Below are positions 22,742 to 27,536 of a DNA stretch of 32,345 bases, piece by piece. The notes beneath the pieces were generated by a model that saw only the letters and a list, made by a program, of their open reading frames with translations, was not told where the DNA came from and did no database searches. This stretch comes from Candidatus Daviesbacteria bacterium (GTDB lineage Bacteria; Patescibacteriota; Microgenomatia; Daviesbacterales; UBA10151). The stretch spans positions 1 through 32,345 of the forward strand of contig JACPEZ010000016.1 in NCBI GenBank assembly GCA_016183225.1. The letters run 5' to 3'. A program made the translations under genes and the position numbers. Position 1 is the stretch's first letter. Each line of letters opens with the position of its first letter.

Positions 22742-23578
22742 ATGCCTGAGCTTCCTGAAGTTGAAGTCATAAAATTAAGCCTGCAGAGAAAAATTATTGG
22801 ATTAACCATTAAAAAAATCCAGATTCTTTCTCCTAAATCATTCATAGGAAATCCAAATTTAGCACAGGGACAAAAAGTACTCAAAATTGAAAGAAAAGCT
22901 AAGCTGTTATTAATTAATTTAGATAAGAATTTACTATTATTTCATCTGAAAATGACAGGACAATTAATTTTGGAAGATGGCAAAAGATTCATCGGAGGCC
23001 ATCCTACTGAAGACATGATGGGAAAAATGCCCAATAATCATACAAGGGTGATTTTTAGTTTCTCGGATGGTTCGCATTTATATTTTAATGACCAGAGAAG
23101 ATTTGGATGGGTGAAGATAATTGATAATGGAAAATTGACAATTGACAATTTAGGCCCAGAACCTCTGGAAAAAGAATTTACCTGGGAAATTCTAAAAAAT
23201 AATTTATTAAAACATAAAAGTATGCCTGTGAAAGTGGCTATTATGGACCAGAAAGTTGTTTCCGGGGTGGGTAATATTTACTCTAATGAGGCTTGTTTTA
23301 ATGCCGGAATTGATCCCAGAACAAAAATAAGTAACTTAAGTGACTTGCAATTCAAAAGACTGCACTTAGGGGTACTTAAGTCTTTAAAAGATGGGATAGC
23401 TCACGGGGGTTCAACCAGAGCCCATTTTCGCGACCCTGAAGGCCACAGAGGCTATTTTCTGGACTATGCCTATGTTTACGGCCGTGACAAACATCCCTGC
23501 AAGGTTTGCGGAACCATTATCAAAAAAATCTCCCTAGGGGGTAGGGGAACATATTTTTGCCCCCAATGCCAGAAATGA
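22742..23578 (+). CDS. mutM: Formamidopyrimidine-DNA glycosylase
   Basis: MPELPEVEVIKLSLQ, HLKMTGQL, GVGNIYSNEACFNAGIDP, C-terminal zinc finger CKVCGTIIKKISLGGRGTYFCPQCQK. Confidence 0.96.
   Translation: MPELPEVEVIKLSLQRKIIGLTIKKIQILSPKSFIGNPNLAQGQKVLKIERKAKLLLINLDKNLLLFHLKMTGQLILEDGKRFIGGHPTEDMMGKMPNNHTRVIFSFSDGSHLYFNDQRRFGWVKIIDNGKLTIDNLGPEPLEKEFTWEILKNNLLKHKSMPVKVAIMDQKVVSGVGNIYSNEACFNAGIDPRTKISNLSDLQFKRLHLGVLKSLKDGIAHGGSTRAHFRDPEGHRGYFLDYAYVYGRDKHPCKVCGTIIKKISLGGRGTYFCPQCQK
23120..23147 (+). repeat. Degenerate heptamer repeat in mutM: ATTGATA ATGGAAA ATTGACA ATTGACA
   Basis: 7-nt periodicity read directly; encodes IDNGKLTIDN. Confidence 0.55.
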
Positions 23579-23623
23579 CCTATAGCTTGACTTTGGTAAC
23601 TCTGTTTGTTATTATTATAGCCT

Positions 23624-24202
23624 ATGAATAAAGAAGAAGAAGTGGGAGTAGGCCTCGACCTTCAAGGCATTAGACAACGATTAGAAAGAGCAAGACAGCT
23701 AAGAGAGTTGATGGGGACAATACGTAATCCCATGCTTGCAGCAGTTTTTAATGTTCCTACCACAGAGGCTAAATCTGAATATTATGCAGATGAAGAATCT
23801 AAAGCTTTACTTCGACAGAAAGCTTCAAGAATAAGAGAGTGGGTTATGGTTAATGGTAGTCTTTATCAAGTTGAACCTGAAATTGAACCCTTAGATAGGA
23901 AGGCACGCTCTTTCCAAGATGACAGCTTTTCAGTAGGGGCAGATCTGCAACCGTCTAGAGGAACTTTTTATGGAGACGGCACCACAGGTGATCTACTTTC
24001 CCTAGCTGCTTTTAGTCAACCAGAGGGTATTCATTTTGATTTAACCTTAAGTTTTGAAGGAGGATATCAGATTACAATAGACTTTTCGGGGGGAATAAGA
24101 TATGAGTCAGCCATGATTGAGCTTGCCGAAATGACAGATATTGAATGTAAACTAGCTAATCATTATTTAGATCGATTTATCGAAGGCCACATGACCAATT
24201 GA
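23624..24202 (+). CDS. Hypothetical protein (cassette gene)
   Basis: 192 aa ORF; promoter TTGACT 23587-23592, 17 nt, TATTAT 23610-23615. Lies between mutM and the first displaced mutM tail. Confidence 0.5.
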   Translation: MNKEEEVGVGLDLQGIRQRLERARQLRELMGTIRNPMLAAVFNVPTTEAKSEYYADEESKALLRQKASRIREWVMVNGSLYQVEPEIEPLDRKARSFQDDSFSVGADLQPSRGTFYGDGTTGDLLSLAAFSQPEGIHFDLTLSFEGGYQITIDFSGGIRYESAMIELAEMTDIECKLANHYLDRFIEGHMTN

Positions 24203-24282
24203 AGGAACTGAAATTTCCACCTGAATTTCTATGAATTTCTACCTGGAGGGTGGAATAGCTTAGTACCTCGGGATTTTGCCTG

Positions 24283-24348
24283 GACAACCACCCCTGCAAA
24301 GTTTGCCAAGCCATCATTAAAAAAATCTCTCTTGGGGGTAGGGGAACA
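24283..24348 (+). repeat. Displaced mutM 3'-tail fragment, 5' part (zinc finger)
   Basis: Encodes DNHPCKVCQAIIKKISLGGRGT. The 33-nt segment 24316-24348 matches mutM 23519-23551 at 30/33. Confidence 0.9.
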
Positions 24349-24420
24349 AAACCACGCCTTACTACACCATAATATATTCAGGTATTGACATGTAGCGTTA
24401 AGTAGTGATAAATTATAATC

Positions 24421-25344
24421 ATGGACAACAAATTAAAGCAGTTAACCGCTAAAAAGAGAAAGCTGGATACTTATAGACCGCTACCCCCGGAGCTGGTCAA
24501 AAACCTTGATGAGTGGTTTAAGATAGAACTTACCTACACCTCAAATGCCATTGAAGGAAATACCCTGACTCGCGCAGAAACAGCTTTGGTGGTGGAAAAA
24601 GGCCTGACTGTGCAAGGGAAGAGTTTAACGGAACATTTAGAAGCGACCAATCATGCCGAGGCGTTAGACTATGTTAAAACATTAGTTAGTAAAAAAAGAC
24701 AGGATATAACAGAACAAGACATTTTAGACATACACAGACTAATTTTAAATAAAATAGAAGCGGACAATGTGGGAAGGTATCGAACACAACATGCCAGGCT
24801 GACGCAGACCGATGTAGTTTTACCCAACCCCGTTAAGGTTCCCTGGCTGATGGAAGAGTTTGTGGAATGGCTTGCAGGCGATAATCATGACCACATAGTG
24901 AAAATTGGGGCAGATGCTCACTACAAATTAGTAAGTATTCACCCTTTTTCAGACGGCAATGGCAGGACTTCCCGTCTTTTAATGAACTTAACTTTAATGC
25001 AGGAAGGTTATCCGCCTGCCATAATCCGCAAAGAGGACAGGTTAGTTTATATAAACTCTTTGGAAAAAGCCCAAAAAGGTATGGGTTTAGACAATTTCTA
25101 TGGTCTTATCTACGGCGCAGTTGACCGTTCACTGGATATTTACTTAAAGGCGCTGCAGCCGGAAGGGGAGCAGATATTTTATACTACAGATGAGGTGGCA
25201 AAGTTGTTGCGGGTAGATCCGGAAAGTGTCAGGCGGTATGTCAGGAGGGGTACATTAAGAGCAGTTAAGTTGGGCGGTAAATTTATTAGGATAGACAGAG
25301 CTGATTTAGACCGATTTATAGAGAAACTTAAGACAAAACAGTAA
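24421..25344 (+). CDS. Fic/DOC family protein with C-terminal excisionase/MerR-type HTH
   Basis: HPFSDGNGRTSR Fic motif; TSNAIEGN inhibitory-helix motif upstream; C-terminal FYTTDEVAKLLRVDPESVRRYVRRGTLRAVKLGGKFIRIDRADLDRFI. Confidence 0.93.
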   Translation: MDNKLKQLTAKKRKLDTYRPLPPELVKNLDEWFKIELTYTSNAIEGNTLTRAETALVVEKGLTVQGKSLTEHLEATNHAEALDYVKTLVSKKRQDITEQDILDIHRLILNKIEADNVGRYRTQHARLTQTDVVLPNPVKVPWLMEEFVEWLAGDNHDHIVKIGADAHYKLVSIHPFSDGNGRTSRLLMNLTLMQEGYPPAIIRKEDRLVYINSLEKAQKGMGLDNFYGLIYGAVDRSLDIYLKALQPEGEQIFYTTDEVAKLLRVDPESVRRYVRRGTLRAVKLGGKFIRIDRADLDRFIEKLKTKQ

Positions 25345-25403
25345 TTAAAAAAATCTCTCTGGGGGGCCGGGGAACATACTTTTGTCCCGCCTGCCAAAAA
25401 TAA
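25344..25403 (+). repeat. Displaced mutM 3'-tail fragment, 3' part
   Basis: Encodes IKKISLGGRGTYFCPACQK*, i.e. the MutM C-terminus. 25344-25376 matches 24316-24348 at 30/33 as a direct repeat flanking fic. Confidence 0.9.
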
Positions 25404-25439
25404 ATAGTTGATAACTCCCTAAAGTGATGTATAATGGTG

Positions 25440-25751
25440 ATGTATATGCATCAAATGTCCAGAACCCAGATTTATCTGCCTTATGAGCTTCGTCAAGCCA
25501 TTGACAAAGATCGCCGCGCAAACGGCGAGAGTCTGGCAGAGTATTTGCGCCAGGCGGCAGAGGAACATTTGAAAAGCCGGAAAAAGAAAAAGGTAGATCT
25601 TAAAAAATTGGCTGATGAGGTAATAGGTTCTTTAAAGGGTTACAGAACCAAAAAAGAAGTGCTGGAATGGGAGAGAGAAATACGAAGGGATCGCAAATTA
25701 GCAGATCAGCACTGGATTAAACGTTGGGATGAAGCTTTGAAAATACGATGA
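25440..25751 (+). CDS. vapB: RHH-type antitoxin (VapB-like)
   Basis: MSRTQIYLPYELRQAIDKDRRANGESLAEYLRQAAEEHL. Start is one of the in-frame ATGs 25440/25446/25455, given -10 TATAAT at 25430-25435. Confidence 0.75.
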   Translation: MYMHQMSRTQIYLPYELRQAIDKDRRANGESLAEYLRQAAEEHLKSRKKKKVDLKKLADEVIGSLKGYRTKKEVLEWEREIRRDRKLADQHWIKRWDEALKIR

Positions 25752-26122
25752 AATATCTGCCGGATACTAACATTTTTATTAGGGCGCTATTTGGTTTTAA
25801 AAAAGAAGAGGCATTTTTGAATAAAGCATTCTCAAAAAATGAAGTGGCTATATCAGTGGTAGTGATTGGTGAGTTTTATGCCAAGTCAGATTCTAAAGAA
25901 GCAGAGACTTTTGAGCGATTAGTTTCTGTGGCGCCTATTTTAGGTATTGACCTAATAACTGCCAGAGTTGCGGCAGATTATAGAAAGCAGTCTTTAAAAC
26001 AAAGCAGAGTTCAGTTATTGGATTGTTTTCTGGCTGCCCAAGCCAAATTGAATCATTTAATTTTAGTGACAGGCAATAAATCCGACTTTTCCATGAAAGA
26101 CATTAATGTCAAAAAGGTGTAA
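25748..26122 (+). CDS. vapC: PIN-domain toxin (VapC-like)
   Basis: MKYLPDTNIFIRALFG...QLLDCFLAAQAKLNHLILVTGNKSDF; overlaps the antitoxin by ATGA. Confidence 0.9.
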   Translation: MKYLPDTNIFIRALFGFKKEEAFLNKAFSKNEVAISVVVIGEFYAKSDSKEAETFERLVSVAPILGIDLITARVAADYRKQSLKQSRVQLLDCFLAAQAKLNHLILVTGNKSDFSMKDINVKKV

Positions 26123-26189: not shown

Positions 26190-27536
26190 ATGGAACAAAA
26201 ACCGTCCTTTGCCTCGGTTTTGGGAAACCGGGGATTTTTAAACCTGTGGATCAATCAGATTCTGGTCCAGCTTTCCTACAATTCCCTGAACTTTGCTTTA
26301 ATTATCTGGGTTTTTCAGCTGACCGGCTCCAATACGGCAGTGGCTGCCCTTTTACTGGCAGTTTATTTGCCGGCAGTGTTGCTGGGTCTTTTTACCGGTG
26401 TTTTAGTGGATTTAATGGATCGTAAAAAAATTATTTTAATGATTAATTTCTTTTTATGCCTGGCCTTTTTCAGCCTGATTTTTCTAAAAGATATTTATCC
26501 GGCTATTTTGGCCGTGGCTTTTTTTGTTAATGCTTTGGGCCAGTTTTATGCTCCTGCCGAAGCTTCGGCCATCCCTTTGATTGTCAAAAGACCCCAGCTT
26601 TTAACGGCCAATTCTTTTTTTTCCATCACCCTGTATTCCTGTTTTTTGCTGGGATTTGGTCTGGCCGGGCCGTTTATTAACCATTTTGGCATAAATTTTG
26701 TTTTTAGTCTGGGAGGAATATTTTTAGGAATAGCCTTTTTTCTGGCCCTGTTTTTTCCCTCTATCAGGGCAGAACCGGACAGCCAGGGTAAAAAACTGAT
26801 CCTGGCTTTGAAATCAAGCAGATTTAAACAGATTAAAGAGGTTGGTTTGTATGAAATCAGGGAAACTATTCATCTGATCAGAGGTAAGCTACCGGTTTTA
26901 TCATCGATTATTATTTTGGCAGGAGTGCAAATGGTGATTGGGATTTTGGCAGTGTTGATGCCGGCGCTTCTTGAGCGATCACTTAACATTAAAGCTACTG
27001 ATGCTTCGTATATTTTGATTATTCCTTTGGGAGCGGGCATTGTGACCGGAGGTTTGATTTTAAGCAGGATCGGGCATCTGTTGGTCAGGAGGCGGCTGGT
27101 TGCCAAGGCTACTATTTTTGGGGGGTTGCTGTTTTTTCTGATGGGAGTGGCTCCGATTCGCCCCCAGCCGTTACCGTTTTTTTCCCAGCTGCCTCTTTCA
27201 TCTGTGGTGGCAGTTGGTTCGTTTTTGCTAGGTATGGTGATGGTCTCTATTTTGGTGCCTTCCCAGACAGTTTTGCAGGAAAATACCCCGGAAGATATGA
27301 GGGGTAAGGTTTATTCCGTTCTGGGAGTGGCCATGGCCGGTCTTTCTTTGATTCCGGTTTTGCTGTCCGGTATTCTGGCAGATATTTTTGGCCCCATGCC
27401 GATTGTTTTGGCCATGGGCGCAATCATTATGCTGGCGGGCGCATTCGGACTTAAACCAAATTTATTTTTTGCCAAAAAAAGTTTACCTTATCATATGAGA
27501 GAATTTTTGGGGTTAGGACATTGGGAAGGAAAGTAG
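26190..27536 (+). CDS. MFS transporter
   Basis: 448 aa, about 12 TM segments; FTGVLVDLMDRKKIILMINF is an MFS loop 2-3-like motif. Confidence 0.85.
   Translation: MEQKPSFASVLGNRGFLNLWINQILVQLSYNSLNFALIIWVFQLTGSNTAVAALLLAVYLPAVLLGLFTGVLVDLMDRKKIILMINFFLCLAFFSLIFLKDIYPAILAVAFFVNALGQFYAPAEASAIPLIVKRPQLLTANSFFSITLYSCFLLGFGLAGPFINHFGINFVFSLGGIFLGIAFFLALFFPSIRAEPDSQGKKLILALKSSRFKQIKEVGLYEIRETIHLIRGKLPVLSSIIILAGVQMVIGILAVLMPALLERSLNIKATDASYILIIPLGAGIVTGGLILSRIGHLLVRRRLVAKATIFGGLLFFLMGVAPIRPQPLPFFSQLPLSSVVAVGSFLLGMVMVSILVPSQTVLQENTPEDMRGKVYSVLGVAMAGLSLIPVLLSGILADIFGPMPIVLAMGAIIMLAGAFGLKPNLFFAKKSLPYHMREFLGLGHWEGK

Follow-up and report, generated by a model that had tools for sequence, protein, structure and literature searches.

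The window, by which we mean the whole 32,345-nt stretch of DNA analysed, contains an intact mutM gene whose product displays the Fapy_DNA_glyco, H2TH and zf-FPG_IleRS (C-terminal zinc finger) Pfam domains, followed by an array in which further copies of the mutM 3' end alternate with other genes (Table 1). These copies, hereafter called tails, comprise the in-place end of mutM (T1) and two displaced pieces (T2 and T3). Homology of T2 to mutM begins at ~24278, a few bases ahead of the listed start, and T2 ends without its final ~24 bp and stop codon. In all three inserts of the window, a sigma-70-like promoter, recognised by consensus match only, stands right after the preceding tail. The 192-aa ORF that forms the first cargo was assigned to no family in Pfam, NCBIfam, PADLOC or PHROGs and had one weak match among 382 genomes, while the RHH antitoxin gene of the last insert was also observed behind mutM in four relatives (G001, G299, G016 and G017). 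The window holds at least two tail-plus-cargo cassettes.

Table 1. Features of the mutM array in the source genome (G000), in coordinates of the 32,345-nt window; G001 is a congener.
Feature	Position	Strand	Basis or remark
mutM (Fpg), host gene of the insertion site (3' end)	22742..23578	+	Pfam/NCBIfam
T1, in-place mutM tail (zinc finger)	23483..23578	+	identity to G001: body 87%, last 93 bp 70%
Promoter-like site of cassette 1, TTGACT-17-TATTAT	23587..23615	+	consensus match only
Cargo 1, 192-aa ORF	23624..24202	+	without family match
T2, displaced mutM tail DNHPCKVCQAIIKKISLGGRGT	24283..24348	+	3' 24 bp missing
Promoter-like site of the fic cassette, TTGACA-18-TAAATT	24385..24414	+	consensus match only
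Cargo 2, fic (Fic domain + HTH_17)	24421..25344	+	PADLOC candidate defence family PDC-S04
T3, displaced mutM tail IKKISLGGRGTYFCPACQK with stop codon	25344..25403	+	mutM homology from ~25337
Promoter-like site of the RHH-vapC pair, TTGATA-16-TATAAT	25408..25435	+	consensus match only
RHH (CopG-type) antitoxin, most distal insert of the array	25434..25751	+	Pfam
PIN-domain VapC-like toxin	25748..26122	+	Pfam/NCBIfam
MFS gene, ancestral right neighbour of mutM in the family	26190..27536	+	gene order in relatives

An earlier note on this DNA had reported three copies of the mutM 3' end, and these are indeed present, with 33-bp blocks at 23519-23551, 24316-24348 and 25344-25376 showing pairwise identities of 30/33, 30/33 and 28/33. 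Since fic ends at 25344, its stop codon overlaps the first base of the distal repeat, as had also been described. Searched across the 784,855-bp assembly as a degenerate pattern (up to 3 mismatches), the 33-mer matched only these three blocks and its reversed control gave 0 matches. With a mutM-tail profile, the displaced pieces scored E = 2.9e-14 and 8e-11 for one genome.

The ancestral gene order in the family is mutM-MFS-recF, and the mutM-recF adjacency was also found in a Collierbacteria contig (L052), which, along with the 0.78-Mb assembly and the small genomes of relatives across the class, suggests a patescibacterial class, probably Microgenomatia. mutM and the MFS gene occur together at 33 loci; the junction is shorter than 100 bp in 17 of these and longer in 16, empty sites and inserts of 0.2-5.5 kb alternating across relatives. 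The mutM 3' flanks of relatives include empty mutM-MFS sites and other cassettes, both of which the earlier note had suggested looking for, as well as longer arrays. For instance, G001, which belongs to the same genus, carries 4 displaced mutM tails in the order mutM, a 348-aa twin-arginine (Tat)-like protein, tail, HicBA, tail, a HigBA-like pair on the other strand, tail, a short non-coding unit, tail, RHH-VapC and MFS. The vapC gene of this genome (L034 6534-6827) has an in-frame TAG after 97 codons, and the reading frame runs on behind it. Displaced mutM tails were also recovered from four other members of the family (G021, G299, and two each in G316 and G012) and from four other families of the class (G126, G377, G202 and G159), forming arrays in G001, G316, G012, G126 and G377; degenerate tails in G005 and G013 are plausible and were left out of the count.

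These displaced pieces have a fixed direction. A profile scan of 94 mutM loci detected more than 12 short extra tails downstream on the same strand and none above 10 bits upstream or on the opposite strand, and among 56 loci of the family displaced-tail matches numbered 13 downstream and 0 upstream. A control set of 80 mutM loci (1,053 genes), taken from diverse named bacteria, contained neither a displaced mutM tail nor a displaced recF tail. The genomes compared are mostly metagenome assemblies, and prevalence figures outside the family come from sampled genomes. Several genomes, mostly of one family (f30; L188, L193, L197, L228), have two full-length mutM-like genes on the same strand, 1-3 kb apart.

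The pattern extends beyond mutM. G012, a complete single-contig genome of 1,096,538 bp (~1,070 ORFs, a gene number obtained from a simple ORF caller) and the sole complete genome scanned without bias, was searched for any gene fragment standing alone within 3 kb. Downstream matches were the 3' ends of only four genes, namely mutM, ychF, the ATP-dependent DNA ligase and an Xer-like recombinase gene, and upstream matches were weak internal or low-complexity ones, with no convincing displaced 5' end. recF was identified as a fifth target, with displaced tails in G001, G031, G021 (two), G023 and G377; ychF tails were also displaced in G020, G021 and G305, and G024 has two full displaced ligase tails. 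In total, we counted 32 displaced tails (mutM 18, recF 6, ychF 4, lig 3, Xer 1), every one of them the extreme 3' end of its gene, lying downstream of it and, in the 26 that were measured, spanning 23-93 bp. Targets recur across genomes, with recF hit in 4/38 and ychF in 3/42 beyond the discovery genome, against ~0.4% expected per gene. Whole-genome searches placed tail copies only 0.03-5.5 kb away, with the exception of one orphan ligase tail in G001 (G001:C7:14738-14812), whose contig is not that of the ligase gene and which reflects either a larger insert or a broken array.

Comparison of in-place and displaced tails points to their origin. In 26 such comparisons, 160 of the 265 differences are synonymous (pS 0.55, pN 0.11), an excess with p ~ 3e-40 against neutral decay or random change, the pairs being partly non-independent. 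As the differences are mostly synonymous, both tails diverged as working gene ends, one of them in another genome. The mutM gene itself bears a comparable trace: the fall in identity between G000 and G001 from the gene body to the in-place tail (Table 1; Fisher p = 2e-4) ranks 7th of 528 pairs, which makes it no more than suggestive by itself, and the tract of divergence begins ~95 bp before the stop codon, approximately where displaced tails start. Between these two genomes, the most distal displaced tails agree better (about 35/41 positions, by eye), in keeping with the distal tail being native. This agrees with the claim of the earlier note that a cassette landed at the mutM end, supplied a new tail and displaced the old one, the tails differing like orthologues from different genomes. 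Judged from sequence comparison, we consider it highly probable that the anatomy is as described and that tails were imported along with cargo; in the window, T1 would have come in together with the nearest cassette.

Two further elements of the earlier note fared less well. It had placed the 192-aa cassette first and the fic cassette second, in the displaced tail. This order is possible, but the reverse would fit equally well, with fic arriving first, the 192-aa cassette second and a later loss of 24 bp from T2 at 24348. The note had also proposed insertion at one specific target sequence, which finds no support: tail starts vary from 23 to 93 bp before the stop codon, a junction motif search found nothing common across insertion events, and recF, ychF, lig and Xer are additional targets. 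No fixed crossover core is apparent from these left edges. Two pairs of inserts do have the same insertion point: the IKKIS codons received fic in G000 and a HigBA-like pair in G001, and in G020 and G305 ychF is followed by homologous Fic genes; they would fit either cassette-specific enzymes or shared descent.

A single tyrosine-recombinase core at the FCPxCQK codons (TTTTGYCC-N4-TGYCAAAA) was also considered, as G001 and G012 have a common 77-bp unit with CTTATTTTT at both its ends. It was rejected, given that its inverted repeat arises from the codons F-C...C-Q-K, that other events cut elsewhere and that a portion of the 77-bp unit is a dispersed REP-like hairpin. This hairpin, GTCGCCTTGAAC..GTTCAATGGCGC (L163-L169, L171-L172), was observed in several genomes of the family and in one other family, and it also occurs between displaced mutM tails in G001 and G012.

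Cargo is mostly of toxin-antitoxin type, in units of one to three genes. Such pairs include HicA with a HicB-like partner, HTH_3 with Gp49 (HigBA-like), BrnT with a CopG antitoxin (two loci) and RHH with PIN (several). In addition, we identified DUF433 with DUF5615, three Fic proteins, AAA_14/DUF4143 ATPases, an abhydrolase, a CDP-alcohol phosphatidyltransferase, a cyclase and a melibiase-like protein. The Fic of the window and an ATPase of G316 fall into PADLOC candidate defence families (PDC-S04 and PDC-S01, respectively). Direct tail repeats should permit the loss of cassettes by recombination, which toxin-antitoxin pairs could counter. In several relatives, a -35-like box of the next gene lies within the mutM tail (seen by eye); promoter retention as the sole cause of the duplicate tail fails, as T3 of G001 precedes a gene on the other strand.

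Pfam and ORF lists revealed no recombinase gene in any cassette examined, and no Resolvase-family match was obtained in the cassettes or in the G000 assembly (85% complete). Outside cassettes, the small genomes of this group encode many tyrosine and large serine recombinases, those of the family (~1 Mb) having up to seven Resolvase-domain matches each, mostly large serine recombinases. In four genomes (G338:C16, G009:C25, G139:C13 and G322:C12), a large serine recombinase ORF appears directly upstream of ychF and possibly represents a candidate enzyme acting at this gene. No link was found that would make an Xer-like gene on contig C31 of G000 the responsible integrase; there (L161, 3199-4889), behind the Xer-like recombinase gene (354 aa) comes an HNH endonuclease ORF, which overlaps a separate fragment of a recombinase C-terminus, and recombinase matches on contig C19 of G001 look broken in much the same way. 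Viral carriers were discarded as well: one match was a phage-encoded mutM, the two ychF matches were chance hits in a methyltransferase, and no viral contig with an attP-like tail was found. The MutM homologue encoded on a 181-kb viral contig (L173 7275-8078) has a degenerate first zinc-finger cysteine pair.

To account for these arrays, we propose site-specific integration at gene ends, a recombinase model that we rate at about an even chance of being right. Insertion concentrates on a few hot spots, the 3' ends of mutM, recF, ychF, lig and the Xer-type recombinase gene. Each cassette starts with the final 23-93 bp of the host gene in a foreign version, continues with one to three cargo genes, mostly with their own promoter, and enters the resident tail at the homologous position, splitting it 23-93 bp before the stop codon. 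The host gene then ends in the foreign tail and remains intact, the old tail is stranded behind the cargo, and repeated insertion generates arrays. This much can be read from the sequences; for the rest, we infer that the joining step is a site-specific recombination at conserved gene ends, similar to that of e14 at icd, mediated by recombinases that would be encoded outside the cassettes and would act in trans or from a co-resident element, each enzyme having its own point of entry within a tail. That integrases are abundant in these genomes is the one observation that suggests such a trans-acting enzyme. Attachment-site integration is favoured by the findings that only gene ends are used, that orientation is fixed, that gene starts are not displaced and that the same few genes are hit again. 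On the other hand, the absence of a recombinase from cassettes, the varying insertion points and the missing junction motif speak against a single sequence-specific enzyme and would allow for capture anchored by homology, while very small units, such as those that follow the Xer gene and lig in G012 (about 28-60 bp), are hard to reconcile with an active mobile element.

Homology-anchored capture would require no site-specific recombinase: a break or gap at a gene 3' end would be extended by copying the tail and the next gene of a related species, and then be rejoined to the resident end, so that the old tail ends up downstream of the captured gene. It would explain why recombinases are absent, why the left edge varies over 23-93 bp with no junction motif, why some units are so small and why tails are foreign and synonymously diverged; nevertheless, alone it leaves unexplained that only the last <100 bp are concerned, that 5' ends are never displaced and that the same few genes are affected, and we regard it as a possible but doubtful route. 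The arrays might otherwise be remnants of ordinary integrative elements or prophages, attached at these gene ends, from which deletion has removed the integrase and most genes and spared the cargo and the displaced tail. This would be in line with the e14/icd-like anatomy and with the many tyrosine and large serine recombinases found elsewhere in these small genomes. We find this unlikely, as 0/32 displaced tails lay beyond an integrase-bearing element in the data seen, tail copies stay within the short distances given above (bar the orphan ligase tail of G001 on another contig) and cargo is tightly packed between tails, with one to three complete genes each. Lastly, local tandem duplication of the gene end, or an assembly artefact, with a second copy decaying neutrally, is very improbable: slippage can make short direct repeats and the genomes are mostly metagenome assemblies, but the synonymous excess leads us to reject duplication, four such sites occur in the complete single-contig G012, and the pattern recurs in many independent assemblies.

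The displaced tails represent a recurrent scar from which gene acquisition can be read in streamlined bacteria that are uncultured and whose means of horizontal transfer are little understood. They reveal where insertions took place, in what order and possibly from which donors, in a class for which island prediction otherwise relies on composition. Furthermore, toxin-antitoxin and candidate defence genes gather in compact arrays at DNA-repair genes, between direct repeats able to delete them, providing a concrete setting for asking whether toxin-antitoxin pairs stabilise arrays. If a recombinase were found, it would belong to a system able to add cargo of gene size without disrupting conserved genes.

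Several known systems offer points of comparison. SCC elements stack at rlmH of staphylococci, carry ccr serine recombinases and have one common core. The arrays described here resemble them as tandem composites at the 3' end of one gene with repeated attachment sequences, but they differ by the lack of ccr, the incomplete G000 assembly and the cassettes being devoid of Resolvase-family matches, and by their variable insertion points. Integron cassette arrays are likewise stacks of gene-sized units, with 1-2 ORFs each, rich in toxin-antitoxin pairs. The stacked gene-sized units and numerous toxin-antitoxin pairs observed here are similar, whereas the repeated element is host-gene coding sequence and the platform is the host gene itself; the occupied sites examined had no intI integrase in the mutM-MFS interval. 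An integron-like system with the 3' ends of conserved host genes (mutM, recF, ychF, lig, xer) as attachment sites, in which a functional copy of the host-gene tail serves as cassette recombination site, with the recombinase encoded elsewhere and a load of mainly toxin-antitoxin and candidate defence genes, is conceivable, and we advance it tentatively.

The literature searched contained no description of the tail-replacing cassette pattern. The words 'integrase' and 'recombinase' are absent from the main text of a study of islands in 125 Patescibacteria genomes (PMC12455944). It is common for a genomic island to restore the gene into which it inserts (PMC12884075), and e14 supplies the icd 3' end, leaving a 163-bp icd' fragment (PMC6379469). 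The likeness to e14 at icd of E. coli, and to phage 21, lies in an insert that gives a conserved protein gene a new 3' end and displaces the old one. Here too the host gene is restored by the 3' end of the insert, mutM being intact with tails that differ mainly at synonymous sites (pS 0.55 vs pN 0.11), and the old 3' end lies at the far end of the insert in the same orientation; unlike e14, no integrase gene was found inside the element, none being present among the cargo. Moreover, e14 is a 15-kb prophage inserted once, whereas these cassettes measure 0.03-5.5 kb, have no recombinase, are stacked and occupy several genes. The arrays therefore match tail-replacing integration of the e14/icd style, and differ from it in being gene-sized, recombinase-less, arrayed and loaded with mostly toxin-antitoxin-type cargo.
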